Origin: a virus
Length of the DNA: 40,352 bases
Direction: 5' to 3' (one strand)
IMG/VR virus record: IMGVR_UViG_3300028393_000142
Coordinates: 1-40,352 of that record
Shown here: piece by piece, positions 5,028 through 40,225 of the stretch
Layout of the letters: every line of letters starts with the position of its first letter
How positions within the stretch are numbered: position 1 is the first letter of the stretch
Program-made: the position numbers and the translations under genes
Notes under the pieces: generated by a model
Database searches by the model: none
The model's input: only the letters and a program-made list of their open reading frames with translations
What the model was told of the DNA's origin: nothing

Positions 5028-5423
5028 ATGGTTAAACACTCAGCGTTCGATTTAGATTTTGGATACGGGCGCAAAGGCGAAAAGCTAGTTGAGGAATTAT
5101 TAACCGAAGGTAAGACTGTTGAAGTTAAGCGAGATAGAAAATGGTGGGTAACTAATAACCTATACATTGAAGTTGAGTGTTGGTTTATGAAGTCGAAGTC
5201 TTGGGAACCGTCAGGAATTATGGTAACTGAGGCTTCATATTGGGCGTTTGTACTAGAAAAGGGTGTACTTATGGTACCCACTACGCACGTAATGTATGCC
5301 ATTAAAGAGTTTGGTCGTGAGATTACTTGCGATATTCCTCCAAATAAAAGCAAGGGTTATTTAATTACTGTAGATGATTTACTTATGGCTATGAGAAAGT
5401 TAAAAAGTGAACCAGTTAATTGA
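5028..5423 (+). CDS. Small PD-(D/E)XK-like protein
   Basis: A 131-aa protein with an RKGEKLVEELL helix and a VEVKRD strand, followed by NNLYIEVEC. This resembles the acid-x-Lys core of restriction-type or resolvase-type nucleases. Two further strands and a C-terminal helix complete a small alpha/beta fold. The catalytic set is less certain than in the Hjc-like gene upstream, so the nuclease call is moderate. It starts three bases after the TOPRIM stop. Confidence 0.6.
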   Translation: MVKHSAFDLDFGYGRKGEKLVEELLTEGKTVEVKRDRKWWVTNNLYIEVECWFMKSKSWEPSGIMVTEASYWAFVLEKGVLMVPTTHVMYAIKEFGREITCDIPPNKSKGYLITVDDLLMAMRKLKSEPVN

Positions 5424-6081
5424 TGATAAAGAACCTATGTGGGAAACTGTTTATACAGTGGCTCGCTTAGCTGCTGTACGTTGTGTACGTATCCATCGCA
5501 ATCTTGTATCTGTGGATGATGTGTTCCAACACTTGAACCTATGGGCGCTGGAACACTGGCACAAAATAGAAGAATGGCAACACCAGGATTCATTAGTGTT
5601 TAAACTTAAACGTACATTCAATAATGAATCTCAGAAGTTTGTTGCTAAGGAGCGTGCTTACAGAACCAAGTCAGTTCCATCTGATGCTTTCTATTACACC
5701 CATGAAATCTTGCAGGAGTTACTTAAAGATGTATGGGTATACGAACAATGGGTACAAAGTTCATCACCAAATGATGCTGAATTTATTAGCAAATCAAGCA
5801 AGCCAAGTGAGGGCATGAATCGTGAGGCTATGTTATCTGATGTAAGTGTTGCACTTAATCGTTTAAACGAACAAGATAGATTGTTGTTGCATCGTAGGTT
5901 TGCAAATGGTGGAACAGATATTGATGCTTTGGCTATTGAGTATTCCATTAGTGATGAAGCTGTTCGCAAAAGAATTAGCCGTTCGCTAGGGAAATTGCAA
6001 GATAGATTAGGTGGCGAACAGCCACAATGGAATAACCGTAGATACAATAAACCAGATAAGGAAACAAATAACAATGATTAA
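5407..6081 (+). CDS. Sigma-factor-like protein (region-4-type HTH)
   Basis: A 224-aa protein. Residues 145-202 resemble sigma70 region 4: LNEQDRLLLHRRF, then DIDALAIEY, then a recognition helix around EAVRKRISRSL. The N-terminal part is helical with several Trp residues and could be a degenerate region 2, but no clear -10 recognition motif is visible. The GTG at 5407 overlaps the previous gene; ATG 5437 is an alternative. It is the obvious candidate for redirecting host RNA polymerase, for example to late transcription. A DNA-binding regulator without sigma activity is the alternative. Confidence 0.65.
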   Translation: MNQLIDDKEPMWETVYTVARLAAVRCVRIHRNLVSVDDVFQHLNLWALEHWHKIEEWQHQDSLVFKLKRTFNNESQKFVAKERAYRTKSVPSDAFYYTHEILQELLKDVWVYEQWVQSSSPNDAEFISKSSKPSEGMNREAMLSDVSVALNRLNEQDRLLLHRRFANGGTDIDALAIEYSISDEAVRKRISRSLGKLQDRLGGEQPQWNNRRYNKPDKETNNND

Positions 6082-7141: not shown

Positions 7142-7525
7142 CTATTCTCGCATTTTGTCATATCTCATGCCAGTTTGTGGGTCAATGGCTACCCAACCTC
7201 TCTTGGTGCGCTCTATTGCCCTGCGACTGGGTGTTAAACCGCCCCAAATACCGAAGCGTTCGTGGGCTAAGCCCCATTCTAGGCACATGAGCATGACTGG
7301 ACACTCCACGCACATAGAGGCAAATACTTTTTCCTCTGATGGCGTAAAGATATTCTTATCAGGATAAAATAACTCAGTGTCTAAACCTTTACATAAGGCT
7401 TGGTTAGTTATTTTAAAATTCCATTTAAGTTTAAACGCTTTAAGGATTTTCTTACCGTGTAATGGCACGTCCTTTTCAAATTCAATCTTATGCCATTCGG
7501 GTCTAGTGTATTTCTGTTCTGACAT
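7142..7525 (-). CDS. whiB: WhiB-like [4Fe-4S] transcription regulator
   Basis: A 127-aa Wbl protein. C45, C72, C75 and C81 follow the Wbl cluster pattern (C-x26-C-x2-C-x5-C). The G-I-W-G-G turn (92-96) and basic TPSRRAIERTKRG tail are the family's other hallmarks. WhiB proteins bind sigma-A region 4 and alter promoter choice. Phage copies such as mycobacteriophage TM4 WhiB can inhibit the host protein and affect septation. ATG 7525 is chosen because GGAGAAGG precedes it. The first 23 nt overlap the upstream gene. The N-terminal 40 residues are a longer, Lys-rich extension than in many Wbl proteins. This gene is the main evidence for an actinobacterial host. Confidence 0.9.
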   Translation of the reverse strand: MSEQKYTRPEWHKIEFEKDVPLHGKKILKAFKLKWNFKITNQALCKGLDTELFYPDKNIFTPSEEKVFASMCVECPVMLMCLEWGLAHERFGIWGGLTPSRRAIERTKRGWVAIDPQTGMRYDKMRE

Positions 7526-7676
7526 AACCTTCTCCAATCATATAGTTAAGTAAACATTCAAGTAACGCTTCAACCTTTACAGGTCTTAACGTTGGTGGTT
7601 GCATATCCTCTGTTGAGAATGTCATGTGTGAATTTATAAGATGAATAGTTAATTCTTCAATCAAATAGGGATTCAT
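7503..7676 (-). CDS. Small protein between transglycosylase and WhiB
   Basis: A 57-aa protein of unknown function, predicted largely helical. Its ATG overlaps the stop of the upstream gene as TAATG and is preceded by AAAGGATGG. It ends inside the WhiB coding region. The stop/start overlaps on both sides indicate a coupled three-gene unit. No motif was recognised. Confidence 0.6.
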   Translation of the reverse strand: MNPYLIEELTIHLINSHMTFSTEDMQPPTLRPVKVEALLECLLNYMIGEGYVRTEIH

Positions 7677-8131
7677 TAGTACCATCCTTTGGCTAGGTGG
7701 TGGGCGTATGCTCTACATATTCCCCCAATTTTTCCGTAATGTCTATCAATATATTTCAAGCCAGCATTTACCTGTTTAAACCCATTCTTGGTGGGTTTAA
7801 TCTTTAAAATTTTCCACGTGCTAGGTAACAGTTGCGCTATGCCTGAGGCGTTTGACAATTTGTTCGTAGCGTTAGGTTGCCAACGAGATTCACGCATCCA
7901 CAATTCATAGAGACATGAGTACTGCTCCAGCTCATTATCTTTAATCAATTCTCCAATGGCATAGTGTTGGTATTCGTTGTTATAGTAGGCAATCACTTCA
8001 AATTTTGGTGGCTGTATCACTGGCGCAGGTTGGTGTGTTATTACCAATGCAGCACCTAATGCTGCTGACGTTGCGAACCATGTACACGCACTCAAATTTA
8101 TTCGGCTGCCATACGTAGTATTTTTTTTCAT
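7676..8131 (-). CDS. Membrane-anchored lytic transglycosylase (SLT/goose-lysozyme-like)
   Basis: A 151-aa cell-wall hydrolase. The N-terminus has a membrane or signal segment (about residues 12-31, Ala/Val/Leu-rich after a basic start). The domain then shows WMRESRW with catalytic E81, GIAQLLPSTW (97-106), an AGLKYIDRHYG helix and a CRAYAHHL end, the Slt-type order. It would cut glycan strands from outside the membrane. It is transcribed leftward with WhiB, away from the late lysis genes. It may therefore act at a different stage or as a secreted accessory, unlike the CHAP endolysin at 39512. The start has AAGGACTGG upstream. Confidence 0.8.
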   Translation of the reverse strand: MKKNTTYGSRINLSACTWFATSAALGAALVITHQPAPVIQPPKFEVIAYYNNEYQHYAIGELIKDNELEQYSCLYELWMRESRWQPNATNKLSNASGIAQLLPSTWKILKIKPTKNGFKQVNAGLKYIDRHYGKIGGICRAYAHHLAKGWY

Positions 8132-8180
8132 AGTAAACCAGTCCTTAAGTTAAGTTAATAACGGTTGGCGTTACTGTTTT

Positions 8181-8209
8181 AGTGTGCCATAGTTAATAAA
8201 TAATGTCAA
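8181..8209 (-). promoter_or_regulatory. Leftward promoter of the transglycosylase-WhiB unit
   Basis: On the minus strand a perfect TTGACA (8209-8204) is followed by a 17-bp spacer and CACACT (8186-8181, a weak -10). It sits about 50 bp before the transglycosylase start and just beyond a 13-A tract. The -35 is excellent and the -10 is poor, which could mean dependence on an activator. Confidence 0.45.
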
Positions 8210-8235
8210 GAAAATTTTACAAAAAAAAAAAAATG

Positions 8236-8296
8236 TAGCAATCTGTACTAGGCGTTGGTTTAAAAAATTTATAGCAATCTGTACTAGGCGTTGGTT
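8236..8296. repeat. Two 25-bp direct repeats, 36-bp period
   Basis: The 25-bp unit beginning TAGCAATCTGTACTAGGCG is exactly repeated at 8236-8260 and 8272-8296 with an AT-only spacer of 11 bp. The centre-to-centre spacing is 36 bp, close to 3.5 helical turns. It is too few copies for a CRISPR. It may be an iteron pair or an operator pair. Confidence 0.8.
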
Positions 8297-8426
8297 CAAT
8301 ACCAAATTCAAAAATTGAACTTTTAAAATTGTTGCTGCAAAATTTTTGTTTAAACAGTTATGACATCCGGCCTGGCGCGTTACTGTTTAAACAGTTGCAA
8401 CCTTAAGCCCATCTGGTTGAAATTAA

Positions 8427-8458
8427 AATAGCCTCAAGCGCTAAGGCTTGAGGCTATT
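8427..8458 (-). terminator. Terminator of the glutamine amidotransferase gene
   Basis: A 13-bp stem AATAGCCTCAAGC / GCTTGAGGCTATT with a 6-nt loop lies 10 bp downstream of the gene's stop on the minus strand. It is followed by TTTAATTT, giving a reasonable intrinsic terminator. Confidence 0.8.
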
Positions 8459-8468
8459 AGTTAAGCGT

Positions 8469-9320
8469 TTAGAATAGGTGAGTGTCATAATAGCCAGAGT
8501 GTTCTGTCTTGCTATCCCACTCACCATTATCCCACTGCTGCCACATGTCGCCCGTCTCAGTGTATAGAGGCGAGTACTTGCGCCAGTTATATTTAATCGC
8601 TGGTGTTCTATGAGGCGTGAATTTTAGGTAATCTAGAATCTTTCCGTTACGTACCTTAAAATACTCTCCCTCATCTGCCGAATGTTCCCAGTCTAGGGAA
8701 GTATCAAGCATGACGGCAGCGTTTAAAATAGTTTCACGGGTTGAGCCATAGACTAGCGAGCCTGTTCGTGTCTGCCCTATCCATAACGGGGAAGAATTGA
8801 CACGCGCTAGGTGTAGCGTGTTACTCCTGCCCTGTTCTATCCACGCGAGCGCTGCCGTGCCCTGTAAGCGTGGCAGCAGCTCGACAATAGGTGCATCACC
8901 GAACGCGATTAGGGCAGCGATAGCCTCGCTGTCTACTTGCGCGTGACGTTTAACCTTAAGCTCCTTGAATAGTTCCCTGTCATTATTCACGTGTCCATTA
9001 TGCGTTAGCACAATTTTACCGCGTGGGATAGGGTGGTTATTCTGGTTCACTTGAGGCGTGCCCTTAGTGGCGAAACGAGTGTGCAAGATAGCTGTGGTTG
9101 CATCTAAGCACGCACGCCGACCCGTTTCTGTTTTAATGAATTTAGAGGCAGACATAGCAGCCTTACTGATAACTCTGTTACCTGTTGCCGCGTTAATCCA
9201 TGCCGCGCCCGTGGCGTGCTGTCCTCGATGTTCAATATCGAGCAGCATCTGAGCTGTTAAGCCTGTCTGGTTGCTGTTATGTTCTTTACTGTTTAGGCAG
9301 TATCCTGCAATTCCACACAT
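8469..9320 (-). CDS. Class II glutamine amidotransferase (stand-alone glutaminase domain)
   Basis: A 283-aa N-terminal-nucleophile amidotransferase. Cys2 becomes the nucleophile after Met removal. HTRFAT (R82) and NGH (N108, G109) form the glutamine site, and DSEA (D130) completes it, as in PurF, GlmS and AsnB. It is only the glutaminase domain plus a short tail (those enzymes run about 500-600 aa), so the released ammonia must go to a separate acceptor enzyme. The amidoligase in the same leftward cluster is the obvious partner. G+C is higher than in the phage backbone. GACAGGAGA precedes the start. An alternative role is hydrolysis of a glutamyl compound without transfer. Confidence 0.85.
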   Translation of the reverse strand: MCGIAGYCLNSKEHNSNQTGLTAQMLLDIEHRGQHATGAAWINAATGNRVISKAAMSASKFIKTETGRRACLDATTAILHTRFATKGTPQVNQNNHPIPRGKIVLTHNGHVNNDRELFKELKVKRHAQVDSEAIAALIAFGDAPIVELLPRLQGTAALAWIEQGRSNTLHLARVNSSPLWIGQTRTGSLVYGSTRETILNAAVMLDTSLDWEHSADEGEYFKVRNGKILDYLKFTPHRTPAIKYNWRKYSPLYTETGDMWQQWDNGEWDSKTEHSGYYDTHLF

Positions 9321-9384
9321 AATATAAGTCTCCTGTCTATTTAGTTAAGCGCTAATTTTAGCACGCTTGAGCGTGAAAGTGAAA

Positions 9385-9412
9385 CAGCCTAAGCACTTAA
9401 GCGCTTAGGCTG
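9385..9412 (-). terminator. Hairpin downstream of the small membrane-protein gene
   Basis: A 10-bp perfect stem CAGCCTAAGC / GCTTAGGCTG with an 8-nt loop, followed on the minus strand by a T-rich stretch (TTTCACTTTC). It lies 17 bp past the stop at 9429 and separates that gene from the amidotransferase. Confidence 0.65.
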
Positions 9413-9428
9413 TAACTGTTTAAACGTG

Positions 9429-9569
9429 TTACCGATAGCACTCTGTCATAGTTCCCCAACAGTAGCCAGCATCCGTGAACCATAGATGAACAGCAACCTG
9501 GAACAGACACCATAGCGCGAGCGCTGCAACCATCCCCAACGCGAACCATCCCCTATTAGTGAGTTTCAT
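9429..9569 (-). CDS. 46-aa single-pass membrane protein
   Basis: An open frame starting MKLTNRGWFALGMVAALALW with one strong hydrophobic helix (about residues 9-30) and a short C-terminal loop, DAGYCWGTMTECYR, with two cysteines that could form a disulfide outside the cell. The ribosome-binding site GACTGGAGAA is strong and spaced well before the ATG. Small membrane proteins of this form are frequent in actinophages. It lies between the amidoligase and glutamine amidotransferase genes, so it could bring their product to the envelope; that is inference. It also has its own terminator-like hairpin. Confidence 0.7.
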   Translation of the reverse strand: MKLTNRGWFALGMVAALALWCLFQVAVHLWFTDAGYCWGTMTECYR

Positions 9570-9595
9570 TTAGTTATTCTCCAGTCATTTAAACA

Positions 9596-9616
9596 GGTTA
9601 GGGAGTTTCCCTAACC
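9596..9616 (-). terminator. Hairpin immediately 3' of the tRNA-like element
   Basis: An 8-bp perfect inverted repeat GGTTAGGG / CCCTAACC with a 5-nt loop, four bases beyond the tRNA-like element on the minus strand. The tail is only weakly T-rich, so it may be a terminator, an RNA-stabilising end or a processing signal. Confidence 0.55.
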
Positions 9617-9620
9617 TAGT

Positions 9621-9665
9621 GCGTGCCGTGGGAATCGCACCCACGCTAACCCACTAGGGGCACGC
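9621..9665 (-). ncRNA. tRNA-like minihelix (acceptor stem plus T arm, no anticodon arm)
   Basis: On the minus strand the 45-nt sequence folds as GCGTGCC, 14-nt linker, GTGGG, TGCGATT, CCCAC, GGCACGC. This gives a perfect 7-bp acceptor-like stem stacked directly on a perfect 5-bp T stem with a 7-nt loop. The loop matches the T-loop consensus except for G at position 55. The linker can form a 3-bp CTA/TAG mini-arm. There is no room for an anticodon arm and no encoded CCA; an A in the discriminator position follows. It lies six bases after the amidoligase stop. It could be a decayed tRNA, a tRNA-mimic or simply a stable 3' hairpin. Confidence 0.5.
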
Positions 9666-9671
9666 TGCCAC

Positions 9672-10388
9672 TTAGCCGTTTAGCTCAGTAGCTCGCTGCT
9701 TGAGATATTCTGCCGTAGGCGTGTCTAGCGTGTTCGCTGCCGTCAGTGTTTCGAGTATCTCGAAACAGTCTAGTAACTTGCTGCCAGTACCTGCCGATAG
9801 CGTGCCTCCATTAAGTGAGAAACTCGCTAGAGACTCGCAGAATTTCGCCCATGCCTCAATTTTCTTGCCGTTGAGGGTGCCGTGATGGAGTCGAAATTCT
9901 ATAGTGCCGTGCCTATCGTAGCTGTTCAAGTTTAAGGACATGAACCGCCCAGTTGAGACAGCGTTGTTGTTGATGTGATTATTTCTAATCGTTTCTCCCC
10001 AGTAATCTATGTCTCGCTCACTTAGTGAGTGGAGACAGTAGCGATTACTTAGGCGAGACTTAGCAACCAGCGCACCTATTCCATTAGCTGCCGTGTACCA
10101 GTTATGCACCAGTGCAGCGATAGCGTTTACGCCATAGTAATCGGCTCCTAAGTGGACATGATAGCCAGTCTGTTTATTTACAGTTGCACCAGCACGGGCG
10201 AGCGCACGGGCTGCCGTGAGTGTTTCGTTTAGTGTTCCATCGTTGAGGATGGGAGACACTGCCTCTGCATCCACTCCATTAGTACCATCTGGCTTACACT
10301 CCCACGCTAAGCCTGCCCTATCAAGGGCAGCTTGAGCCGTGCCAATACCTATGCTCGATGTTTCAAGCTCGATGCCGTAAGTTTTCAT
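9672..10388 (-). CDS. Amidoligase (COOH-NH2 ligase, Amidoligase_2-like)
   Basis: A 238-aa enzyme with the amidoligase motif order. It has YGIELE at the N-terminus (E7, E9), KPDGTNGVDAEAVSPIL (32-48), GYHVHLG (75-81), RFMSLN (148-153) and TIEFRLHHGT (162-171). These are the ATP/Mg and substrate residues of the glutamine-synthetase/ATP-grasp-like amidoligase family, which joins a carboxylate to an amine or ammonia. Comparative genomics has linked this family to glutamine amidotransferases, matching the neighbour at 8469. The TAATG overlap with the upstream zincin-like gene indicates coupled translation. The substrate is unknown; a peptidoglycan or peptide carboxylate is a reasonable guess. Confidence 0.8.
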   Translation of the reverse strand: MKTYGIELETSSIGIGTAQAALDRAGLAWECKPDGTNGVDAEAVSPILNDGTLNETLTAARALARAGATVNKQTGYHVHLGADYYGVNAIAALVHNWYTAANGIGALVAKSRLSNRYCLHSLSERDIDYWGETIRNNHINNNAVSTGRFMSLNLNSYDRHGTIEFRLHHGTLNGKKIEAWAKFCESLASFSLNGGTLSAGTGSKLLDCFEILETLTAANTLDTPTAEYLKQRATELNG

Positions 10389-10945
10389 TAGTTCTCCAGT
10401 CTAAGTGTTGCGTGACATACAGGGCAGCATGGGCAGCCATACGAATTAGCTGTCCTGCTTGATATTCTGACAATATAGGCAGCGTGAGCGTTTCCGTTCA
10501 TGCTGTCTCCGTAGCATACAGCCTTAAGGAGTCGCGTACTCTGCTTAGTGGCACTATCTAGTACCTCTAACCTAGCGTGCGGATACTCCCCGACACTATC
10601 TAGGGCAGCTAGTGCCCATGATGGCAGCCTGTCCAGTGGCTTAGCCACTGCTGGCGCGTTATCTCGCCAGTCTCCCACGTGAGCGAGCTTCAACAGTGGC
10701 AGCAGCAGTGCTGCCACTGTCTCTCCTCCCTCGATGGTAGGGGAAATGAATATCTCTGCCGTGAAGTCCTCAGAGGCTGTTGGAGGGATAACGGCAGCAG
10801 GGATGACCTTGCGACCGCTATACGGAGGGAATCCGCATGATAGGCGAATAGTTGCCTCCTCTGCTCCTCCATGTCCTCCTATGCTGCTCAGAATTTCATC
10901 CTTAACAGTGCTAGCGAATTTCGCCAGCCATGTTTCTCTGTTCAT
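10388..10945 (-). CDS. SprT/zincin-like protein with lost HExxH motif
   Basis: A 185-aa protein resembling the SprT-like phage metallopeptidases by its EIFISP strand (residues 64-69) and its KQSTRLLKAVC segment (135-144). Its C-terminal Cys cluster (C171, C173, C174, C177) may form a zinc ribbon with C144. Where the family has HELVH, this protein reads P83, L84, L85, K86, L87, so both metal-binding His and the catalytic Glu are gone while flanking residues keep register. It is likely a pseudo-enzyme with a binding or scaffolding role. ATG 10945 is chosen because AAGGACTGG precedes it; longer forms would start inside the repeat region. It is coupled to the amidoligase by TAATG. Confidence 0.65.
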   Translation of the reverse strand: MNRETWLAKFASTVKDEILSSIGGHGGAEEATIRLSCGFPPYSGRKVIPAAVIPPTASEDFTAEIFISPTIEGGETVAALLLPLLKLAHVGDWRDNAPAVAKPLDRLPSWALAALDSVGEYPHARLEVLDSATKQSTRLLKAVCYGDSMNGNAHAAYIVRISSRTANSYGCPCCPVCHATLRLEN

Positions 10946-11044
10946 GTTTACCAGTCCTTCTAATCGTTTAAACAGCTTGAAAGTCTCAAGCTGCAAGAGG
11001 CATCTAACCAGTTACGCATGAACAGAAGGTGAATACCAAATAAA

Positions 11045-11108
11045 CAGTTGGTGAACAGTTGGTGAATAATTAAACAGCAGCGTTTAAACAGTTGCGTTTA
11101 AACAGTTG
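11045..11108. repeat. Tandem AACAGTTG-type repeats with double GTTTAAAC
   Basis: Successive copies of AACAGTTG occur, ending in a perfect 14-bp tandem duplication CGTTTAAACAGTTG (11081-11094 and 11095-11108). The 14-bp period and palindromic core suggest adjacent protein-binding sites. Confidence 0.7.
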
Positions 11109-11282
11109 GGATGGCGTGGCGTGGGGTTGCGTTGCTTGCCGTTTAAACAGAGTAGCAGCCTCAACAGCAGCCAGCAGCAGCAGCACGCTTAGCACTCCTA
11201 GCACGCTCATCCCATGCCTAGCGTTTAAACAGCTCATGCAAGTTGGGGAGCAAACGCGAGTGAAGCGACCCAGGGTTTTTAA

Positions 11283-11310
11283 ATGTGCGTGTGTGTATGT
11301 GTGTGTGTCT
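11283..11310. repeat. GT microsatellite
   Basis: A short run of alternating GT with a few interruptions, 40 bp before the late promoter. It could vary in length by replication slippage. No gene is affected. Confidence 0.6.
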
Positions 11311-11351
11311 CTACCTACATAACTTTGATAGGTATGGGGTCAATATGCACT

Positions 11352-11380
11352 CTGACCTGCACTTATACCTACGCTATAAA
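11352..11380 (+). promoter_or_regulatory. Candidate late rightward promoter
   Basis: CTGACC (11352-11357), a 17-bp spacer and TATAAA (11375-11380) form a good sigma70-like promoter. The predicted start near 11387 would give a leader of about 230 nt before the terminase gene. It is the only clear rightward promoter before the long structural operon. Confidence 0.55.
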
Positions 11381-11416
11381 ATGTGTTGCATATCACAAAA
11401 ATAAATAGCAATAAAA

Positions 11417-11568
11417 TGTCCAATAGCAACCTTCTGGACACCTAATAGTATATGTAGGGCAAAATAATGGTCGCCCTACAGCAAAGCATTAGGAACGCTT
11501 GAAAAGCGTTCCCCTAGTAATTGCCCTAACCTACGGTTTTCGCCTTAGGGCTTCAACCTACGGTTAGG
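11417..11568 (+). ncRNA. Structured leader RNA with alternative hairpins
   Basis: Four consecutive hairpins can form: TGTCC/GGACA (11417-11440), TGTAGGGC/GCCCTACA (11453-11480), GGAACGCTT/AAGCGTTCC (11492-11512) and GCCCTAA/TTAGGGC (11523-11551). A competing pairing, CCTAACC (11525-11531) with GGTTAGG (11562-11568), uses the same 5' bases as the last stem and would mask part of the ribosome-binding site of a leader peptide. The 11-bp word AACCTACGGTT is repeated at 11528 and 11555. This looks like a switchable 5' UTR; no known riboswitch class was recognised. Confidence 0.5.
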
Positions 11569-11582
11569 AAAGGAAAACTGCA

Positions 11583-11609
11583 ATGCTCTACATATTGTCG
11601 CATTGCTAG
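11583..11609 (+). CDS. Leader peptide MLYILSHC upstream of terminase
   Basis: An eight-codon open frame with the best ribosome-binding site in the leader (AGGAAAGG) ends seven bases before the terminase ATG. The terminase has no Shine-Dalgarno sequence of its own. Termination of the leader followed by re-initiation would couple the two. It is too short for any homology support. Confidence 0.4.
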   Translation: MLYILSHC

Positions 11610-11616
11610 TACGCCT

Positions 11617-13479
11617 ATGGAAAGAAAAAGAGCTACAGCAGCATCACAAAAATCTGATGCTATTAAAAAGCAAGTTATTGAATTACTTATGCAAGGTAAG
11701 TCTGTTCAACAGGCTATGGATACCGTTGGCAGAAGTGTTAAGACTTATGAGTACTACCGCAAGACTGATGCTCATTTTGCTTTAAACATAGACAAGCTAA
11801 GAGCATTGACCGCCCGTGGTGAAATAGGCGGTCCGACCGAAGCCGTACCGCCATTTGAAATTTTTTCGCAAAAGTATTTAGGGGTAGATGTATTTGAACA
11901 TCAACGCCACTGGATTGATTTATTAGAATCTAGAACGCCTACGGACATTCATCCTTCTATTATTTACGAACCTGGGGATAAAGATTTACTTATTGTAAAC
12001 ACCCCACCAGAACACGCAAAGTCTACGACCATTACGGTTAACTATGCTGTATACCGGATTTGCCAAAACCCTAACATCCGCATAATGGTTGTTTCTAAAA
12101 CACAGGCTATGGCGCAAAAGTTCCTGCTCTCCATAAAGAACAGACTCACCCATCCTCGTTATCAGGATTTACACCTCGCCTTTGGACCTCCAGGCGGTTT
12201 TGAAAAAAACTCTGATTCGTGGAAGCAGGACTTAATTTACCTATCGTCAGAGTCACGCGACTCAGGCGAAAAAGACCCCACCGTACAGGCTGTTGGTATA
12301 CGGGGTCATATTTATGGTGCACGTGCCGACTTAATCATAATGGATGACTGTGTTGACCACACCAACGCCCATGAGTATGAAAAACAAATTGACTGGATTC
12401 AATCAGAAGTTATGTCACGTATTGACTACGATGGCGGTAAGTTATTGGTTGTAGGCACTCGCCTACGTCCAAAAGATTTATATTCAGAACTACGCGACCC
12501 AATGCGTTACCCAGATGAAACTTCCCCTTGGACTTATTTTGCTCAGCCAGCCGTTCTTGAGTTTGCTGAAGAAAACAAAGACTGGGTAACGCTGTGGCCC
12601 AAAACCAATATGGCTCCCGTTTCTGGTAACGGTACACCAGATGAAAATGGTTTATACGATAAATGGAACGGTGAGGCATTAGCCAAAAAACGTGGTCGTA
12701 TGTCACCTAACCTGTGGGCAATGGTATACCAACAACAACAGGTACATGAAGATTCTGCTTTCCCTACAGAAGCAATTAAGGGCGTTATCAATGGTGCTCG
12801 CAACATTGGTTTAATACCTAAAGGCAAAGCAGGAAACAGATACAACGGTATGGAAGGTCTTATTGTAGTTGCAGGGCTTGACCCAGCAATGGCTGGTCAT
12901 ACCGCAGCAGTTTGCATAGCTGTAGACATCAATACTCAAAAGCGATACTTGCTCGATGTGTCTAACCAGCAAGGCATGAAGCCAGATGCAATCCGTCAGT
13001 TGATTAAAGACTGGACAGATAAGTACTTGATTTCTGAGTGGCGCGTTGAAAAAAATGCATTTCAAGCGATGTTGACTCAGGACCGTGAGGTACGTGAATA
13101 CCTGCAAACAAGAGGTGCAATACTTAAAGAACACCATACTGGACAAAATAAATGGGATACAGACTTTGGTGTTGCATCTCTTACTACTCTTTTTCATGGG
13201 TGGGAAGATGGCAATGCGCTATTAGAACTTCCATCAACCCATGCATCAGAAGGTTTAAAGGCGTTAATTGAACAACTAGTTACTTGGTATCCAGATTCAC
13301 CTAAATCGCAAAAAACTGACTGCGTAATGGCATTTTGGTTTACAGAGTTAGCAATACGTGACCGTATTAACAATGCTACATCTCATGCACGAAACCATTC
13401 ACGCAATTCAATGTTCTATACCAAGTATGACAAATCAACACAAATGATGGTTAATCTATCAGATTTAATTTCAATTTAA
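11617..13479 (+). CDS. terL: Terminase large subunit (fused N-terminal HTH)
   Basis: A 620-aa DNA-packaging motor. The first 60 residues resemble a helix-turn-helix domain (KSVQQAMDTVGRSVKTYEYY), perhaps taking the place of a separate small terminase, which is not visible. The ATPase has Walker A TPPEHAKST (129-137) and Walker B LIIMDD (239-244). The C-terminal RNase-H-like nuclease begins around GLDPAMAG (near residue 420) and includes later acidic residues. It cuts and translocates DNA into the prohead through the portal encoded next. It lacks a ribosome-binding site and sits just after the leader peptide. Confidence 0.9.
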   Translation: MERKRATAASQKSDAIKKQVIELLMQGKSVQQAMDTVGRSVKTYEYYRKTDAHFALNIDKLRALTARGEIGGPTEAVPPFEIFSQKYLGVDVFEHQRHWIDLLESRTPTDIHPSIIYEPGDKDLLIVNTPPEHAKSTTITVNYAVYRICQNPNIRIMVVSKTQAMAQKFLLSIKNRLTHPRYQDLHLAFGPPGGFEKNSDSWKQDLIYLSSESRDSGEKDPTVQAVGIRGHIYGARADLIIMDDCVDHTNAHEYEKQIDWIQSEVMSRIDYDGGKLLVVGTRLRPKDLYSELRDPMRYPDETSPWTYFAQPAVLEFAEENKDWVTLWPKTNMAPVSGNGTPDENGLYDKWNGEALAKKRGRMSPNLWAMVYQQQQVHEDSAFPTEAIKGVINGARNIGLIPKGKAGNRYNGMEGLIVVAGLDPAMAGHTAAVCIAVDINTQKRYLLDVSNQQGMKPDAIRQLIKDWTDKYLISEWRVEKNAFQAMLTQDREVREYLQTRGAILKEHHTGQNKWDTDFGVASLTTLFHGWEDGNALLELPSTHASEGLKALIEQLVTWYPDSPKSQKTDCVMAFWFTELAIRDRINNATSHARNHSRNSMFYTKYDKSTQMMVNLSDLISI

Positions 13480-26894: not shown

Positions 26895-26920
26895 GAGGGG
26901 GTGGGGCAACTTGCCCCCTC
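26895..26920 (+). terminator. G/C-rich hairpin after the capsid gene
   Basis: GAGGGGG / CCCCCTC flanks an inner GGGGCAA / TTGCCCC palindrome, giving a strong hairpin 14 bp after the capsid stop. The following bases (TCTATATT) are only partly T-rich. It probably causes partial termination or protects the capsid mRNA 3' end, since the operon continues. Confidence 0.6.
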
Positions 26921-40179: not shown

Positions 40180-40190
40180 CAGTTTAAACA

Positions 40191-40225
40191 AAAAAGCCCC
40201 TCGCTTTATGCGGGGGGCTTTTTTG
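40191..40225. terminator. Strong bidirectional terminator closing the late operon
   Basis: AAAAAGCCCCTCGC pairs with GCGGGGGGCTTTTTT over a 5-nt loop, with one G-T pair, and has poly-A/poly-T flanks on both sides. It therefore works in both directions between the holin gene and the leftward membrane-protein gene. A GTTTAAAC palindrome lies directly before it (40182-40189). Confidence 0.9.

Follow-up and report, generated by a model that had tools for sequence, protein, structure and literature searches.

The pRNA of phage phi29 is a structured RNA of DNA packaging. Phage HK022 carries put RNAs (putL and putR) that make RNA polymerase resistant to terminators, and putL consists of stem-loops just downstream of its promoter (PMC9378689). 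In phage T4, a hairpin shortens the spacing between the Shine-Dalgarno (SD) sequence and the AUG of genes 38 and 25 from 22 to 5 nt and from 27 to 11 nt, respectively (PMC3014915). In staphylococcal phages, the CBASS-activating RNA (cabRNA) is defined by activation of a CD-NTase of CBASS. It derives from the coding sequence of terS-terL and shows no sequence homology from one phage to the next (PMC10686824). Here, we describe a chain of hairpins directly upstream of terL, the gene for the terminase large subunit, in a 40,352-base IMG/VR virus record, which is referred to as the window. It represents a structured-RNA (or DNA) family that is strongly supported, has no Rfam match, and heads the packaging and structural genes.

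Results

The terL gene (11617..13479, + strand; phrog_38) is the first gene of a rightward block that extends almost to the window end, and leftward genes occupy ~7.0–11.0 kb. The helix-turn-helix match at the N-terminus of TerL (HTH_23; window 11617-11880) is weak (E 0.0013 for the fragment) and does not reach the curated cutoff, and a separate terS was not seen beside terL. The window also encodes a WhiB-like factor (7142-7537, − strand; PF02467, E 3.6e-14) and a sigma-70 region 4 protein (5407-6081, + strand), which are candidate late-promoter regulators. WhiB-like factors are regarded as an actinophage mark (PMC10202952), and the presence of one in this genome thus points to an actinobacterial host. 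The phages that carry the element form a large environmental group, probably actinobacterial; in a host search of GTDB genomes, a TerL relative was encoded on no genome contig. A glutamine amidotransferase-like protein and an amidoligase are encoded close to one another on the − strand (8469-9320 and 9672-10388). The motif TTTAAACAG, allowing at most one mismatch, occurs 55 times in the window vs 25 expected. The region of note is 7772-11232, mainly 10967-11232; a cluster 0.4–0.65 kb upstream of terL may be an operator, an iteron, or a packaging repeat. A GC-rich hairpin with a weak T tail lies directly 3′ of the capsid gene (26895-26920), and a strong terminator-like hairpin lies close to the window end (40189-40225).

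The element (window 11454-11606), a hairpin chain of ~165 bases, precedes terL directly in 117 distinct upstream regions, most of them from metagenomic sequences. The relatives were gathered by TerL searches, which returned loci at 82–90% TerL identity as well as further ones. A covariance model (R1), built from seven close relatives (alignment A2), found the element in all 100 relatives searched, always on the coding strand and ending at the terL ATG, with scores of 53–198 bits; its opposite-strand matches are weak and represent a palindromic shadow of the hairpins. Two sequence patterns of the P4 helix described below were further scanned against all viral contigs, and 67 of 68 new loci (pattern 1) and 69 of 71 (pattern 2) precede terL. 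All 136 testable matches do so, the remaining three being truncated by a contig end. Position and copy number are shown by such comparison, and the element is single-copy in 23/23 near-genome-length records (37–43 kb). The contig ends of these 23 records are scattered, ~0.9 to 39 kb from the element, as expected for circularly permuted genomes or for assembly from circles. At the gathering threshold, Rfam gave no match in the window, pRNA and riboswitch families included, and the best sub-threshold matches at relaxed thresholds were unrelated (E 1.2–4.7). A literature search that covered subscription papers thinly turned up no account of the element, so an earlier description is possible.

Evolution has clearly preserved a structured element upstream of terL, judging from the alignments. 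In the window, 11417-11640 folds at −72.1 kcal/mol vs −52.9 ± 4.5 kcal/mol for 200 dinucleotide shuffles (z −4.27), none of which folds as well. A preliminary description made from this sequence had proposed four hairpins in 11417-11616; the first of them (11417-11440) is better read as a promoter DNA dyad, and the conserved helices are P2, P3, P4, and P5. Helix P2 (11454..11479, + strand; GTAGGGC/GCCCTAC with a 12-nt loop) lies at the predicted 5′ end of the transcript. Double changes occur at four of its pairs, the terminal one being unpaired in 20 sequences, and three pairs are invariant. Helix P3 (11492..11512, + strand; GGAACGCTT/AAGCGTTCC) covaries, with 52 Watson-Crick switches on the tree. 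The P4 rod (11525..11568, + strand) reads CCTAACC-TAC-GGTT-TTC-GCC-TTAG-GGC-TTC-AACC-TAC-GGTTAGG, in which CCUAACC/GGUUAGG is followed by shorter helices split by symmetric 3x3 internal loops of the form U-N-C. Its outer helix is invariant except for the terminal pair, and the inner helices covary: the GGUU/AACC of the window is GGCU/AGCC, GCC/GGC, or GGGC/GCCC in relatives, and one clade has a shorter rod. Helix P5 (11580..11606, + strand; GCAATGC/GCATTGC) sits between the SD and the terL ATG; it shows double changes at all seven pairs, and 100% of its cells are paired.

Pairing is conserved throughout the relatives. In alignment A4, which was fitted to the structure by the model, 98.7% of 3357 cells are paired, with double changes in 603 cells and at 21 of 35 pairs, and the covariation score is 0.442 vs 0.131 ± 0.005 for shuffled and ≤0.062 for slid alignments. 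RNAalifold predicted the same helices from A4 and recovered P2, the outer stem of P4, and P5 from an unfitted MAFFT alignment. Because the sequences are related, events were also counted by parsimony on a TerL nucleotide tree, giving 116 switches from one Watson-Crick pair to another, 13 with a mismatch, and none with G-U. A pseudoknot between the CCCTA after P3 and TAGG was considered and rejected by eye, as CCCTA varies and its partner is unchanged.

The near-total absence of wobble pairs despite many pair switches is unusual. G-U occupies one of 3345 cells and none of the 2285 cells inside helices and away from their ends; the first count omitted the apical pair of P4, which is U-G in one clade and may belong to the loop there. 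As a small control, six E. coli tRNAs contain 6 G-U among 127 pairs. The pair switches comprise 61 of transition type and 55 of transversion type. The P4 internal loops follow the rule U-N-C/U-N-C in 445 of 450 loop strands, with the middle base free. G-N-A/G-N-A is the signature of two sheared G-A pairs, in RNA and in DNA mismatches alike, and the U-N-C/U-N-C loops read as G-N-A/G-N-A on the minus strand only. The minus strand also folds better in 33/33 representatives, and P4 does likewise with both RNA and DNA parameters. Together, the lack of wobble, the loop rule, and the strand energies favor a structure at the DNA level or in the minus strand. Alternatively, very strong selection in very large populations, purging intermediates, could account for the lack of wobble.

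A conserved promoter plan precedes the element. Its dyad TGTCC-N14-GGACA (P1; 11417..11440) has a spacing of exactly 14 in 117/117 upstream regions, and a −10-like box, TAGTAT in the window (11446..11451, + strand), has the form TANNNT in 108 of 117. Farther upstream, a CRP/GlxR-like palindrome with at most two mismatches occurs in 51/116 upstream regions vs 0.8 expected, 42 of these sites being placed exactly 29 nt 5′ of GGACACC. The site of the window itself, TGTGTTGCATATCACA (11382..11397; two mismatches to TGTGANNTANNTCACA), is not above chance alone and is displaced upstream by ~9 nt compared with most relatives. P1 was rejected as an RNA part, since the arms do not vary and are rigidly spaced, A/G stands opposite C in the outer pair, and the plan of dyad and box recurs in distant relatives. 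P1 with its A-rich flank as a leftward terminator was also rejected as not general, the run being absent in relatives with the CRP-like site or high GC. Because of the conserved dyad, the −10-like box, and their recurrence in Streptomyces-phage types, the start of the plus-strand transcript is placed, as a prediction, at ~11454, where it probably lies. The promoter would accordingly sit upstream of P2, not downstream of the leader.

The SD-like sequence AGGAAAGGA (11566..11574, + strand) overlaps the 3′ end of the P4 rod, at the margin of the stem of CCTAACC (11525-11531) and GGTTAGG (11562-11568), as the preliminary description had noted. In the window, a purine-rich SD is absent from the bases just 5′ of the terL ATG (11617). 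In 75 of 117 relatives, P4 carries the sole SD at its 3′ edge, and P5 separates this SD from the AUG; the other 42 have an SD near the AUG, 21 of them together with one at P4. The distance from the end of P5 to the ATG is 6–13 nt in every sequence. In 67 of the 100 A4 sequences, looping out of P5 would reduce the median distance between SD and ATG from 42 to 16 nt; the other 33 have a near SD.

The switch-like control read earlier into these letters did not extend to the relatives. An open reading frame for an eight-codon leader peptide, MLYILSHC, can be read in the window (ATG..TAG, 11583-11609). Among 117 distinct relatives, 20 have an SD, ATG, and stop together, and a frame of eight codons is peculiar to the window. 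The codons coincide with the arms of P5 (GCAATGC/GCATTGC), a stem absent from the preliminary list, and their bases change in compensating pairs. The segments said to swap partners are likewise present, TAGGGC at 11455-11460 and 11546-11551 and GCCCTA at 11473-11478 and 11523-11528; both copies of each occur together in 17/117 relatives. The apical TTAGGGC is kept in 29/117, and the P2 arms of relatives have changed to GAGAGGC, GAAAGGC, and other sequences that are unable to pair with P4. The supposedly competing CCTAACC/GGTTAG stem, a static helix, is present in 117/117. An attenuator would call for a terminator-like hairpin with a T run, and 10900-11900 holds none. Folded singly, all 117 sequences form P2 and P5 and 86 form the P4 outer stem, and 64 are predicted to have some long-range pairing of the P2 region with P4 or beyond. 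Thermodynamic competition may thus occur, but it is no conserved alternative. What stands of the earlier proposal is a structured leader directly 5′ of terL and downstream of a promoter, which may set the amount of terminase; the peptide, swap, and attenuator parts fall away.

Distant relatives share the promoter plan with a different set of hairpins. The covariance model did not find the element in 70 Streptomyces-phage-type loci (TerL ~50% identical), and a search for TerLs of intermediate identity between the two groups gave none. In these phage types, GTGAN6TCAC occurs in 43/54 upstream regions vs 0.5 expected, and the dyad with a TATA box in 21/54 vs 0.2 expected, mostly 10–11 nt apart. 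The order and spacing of the promoter are as in the window relatives, and other GC-rich hairpins follow. TGTGAN6TCACA lies upstream of terL in L252, L259, L267, L284, L286, L300, and other loci of this type, and is followed by TGTCC-N13/14-GGAC or another dyad, TATATA, and GTGAG, and then by several hairpins that make up a different leader, whose conserved motifs include CGGGATCATTCCTCC and GCCGCACGGCGTTTGAGTTGC. These leaders are probably a second structured leader family. That Streptomyces phages combine this promoter plan with hairpins of another kind suggests that actinophages in general place a hairpin leader before terL.

Discussion

The element is tentatively interpreted as the structured 5′ untranslated leader of a late transcript that begins with terL, a cis-acting RNA on terL translation. 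Transcription would begin near P2, just past the conserved CRP-like site, TGTCC-N14-GGACA dyad, and −10 box, and the nascent RNA, the presumed actor, would fold into P2, P3, the P4 rod, and P5. Its most likely function would be setting the initiation of terL translation. P4 would terminate in the SD, and P5 would loop out the gap between SD and AUG in most relatives or take up the 3′ portion of the SD into one of its arms in the others; P2 and P3 may serve as docking or stability elements. However, G-U pairs are almost absent, unlike in ordinary RNA helices, the loop rule reads as sheared G-A on the minus strand only, and that strand folds better. The bridged spacing of 16 nt is also long for an SD, and P2 and P3 are unaccounted for by translation alone. 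Confidence in the mechanism is kept no higher than moderate because the lack of wobble, the loop rule, and the minus-strand energies are unexplained.

Antitermination, which we rate as having a limited chance of being right, is a close rival to this translational control. As in put, RNA polymerase would be bound by the nascent hairpins, unaided or together with Nus or phage factors, and would read through terminators in the ~28-kb late operon. Such a leader would be expected where the element appears to lie, immediately 3′ of a long operon's promoter, as putL is just downstream of its own, and the element is single-copy with several hairpins. The weak-tailed hairpin after the capsid gene (26895-26920) and the strong one at 40189-40225 might be the terminators to be passed, but late-operon terminators are only putative here. 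Antitermination would also not require P5 to be so closely tied to the terL ATG; a second copy at another operon is absent from the 23 records of 37–43 kb, and no sequence test ties the element to put. As for the preliminary model, in which switching between two folds governs a leader peptide of eight codons that is coupled to terL, it is hardly credible: every letter of it is found in the window, but its peptide and swap partners are unconserved, and the competing static helices are conserved.

The missing wobble pairs, absent across the 61 transition-type and 55 transversion-type switches, bear on readings in which the DNA itself is folded. It is unlikely, less probable still than antitermination, that the element acts as (minus-strand) DNA hairpins, e.g., a pac/cos-type packaging or replication structure seen by the terminase. 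The G-N-A/G-N-A mismatches of the minus strand and the better fold of its P4 with DNA parameters agree with this, as do the lack of a terS seen beside terL and the weak helix-turn-helix match at the TerL N-terminus. In near-genome-length records, the contig ends fall at scattered distances from the element, which circular permutation would produce but assembly may as well. Against DNA hairpins, linker and loop lengths vary while the mismatched 3x3 loops of P4 are kept, the element lies exactly between promoter and ATG with its 3′ part overlapping the SD, and the genome end of Streptomyces-type relatives is ~620–680 nt away. Somewhat less probable again is a combined role, in which perfectly Watson-Crick hairpins with G-N-A/G-N-A loops, arrayed beside the terminase gene as a DNA or minus-strand structure, would mark the starting point for a TerL that has its own DNA-binding domain and would double as the late 5′ leader. 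We consider it improbable that the molecule that folds is antisense, either a minus-strand RNA or a 5′ leader on a leftward transcript. Its loops would be compatible with sheared G-A pairs, its energies are lower, and the genes at ~7.0–11.0 kb are leftward; however, a leftward promoter was not identified, conservation seemingly stops at the terL ATG (by eye), and Streptomyces-type relatives lack leftward genes there.

Compared with known systems, the translational leader that we tentatively prefer would resemble the T4 gene 38 and 25 hairpins, each of which brings a remote SD effectively closer to its AUG. Unlike those, P5 is part of a larger conserved element, its residual spacing is longer, and the SD of some clades has shifted across the hairpin. 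The put RNA of HK022 is similarly a multi-hairpin RNA just 3′ of a phage promoter at an operon start. It comprises ~70 nt with two stem-loops before early genes (PMC9378689), whereas the element heads the terL operon and has four helices in ~165 nt. Like staphylococcal cabRNA, the element would be a structured phage RNA from the terminase region (PMC10686824); unlike it, the element is a conserved non-coding stretch 5′ of terL. The leaders of Streptomyces Beephvirinae (FlowerPower, HaugeAnator) share with the window the succession of CRP-like site, dyad, TATA box, GC-rich hairpins, and terL, but have other hairpins and conserved motifs and are missed by the covariance model. The pRNA of phi29 is similar in length; unlike it, the element has no Rfam match and is encoded directly 5′ of the terminase gene.
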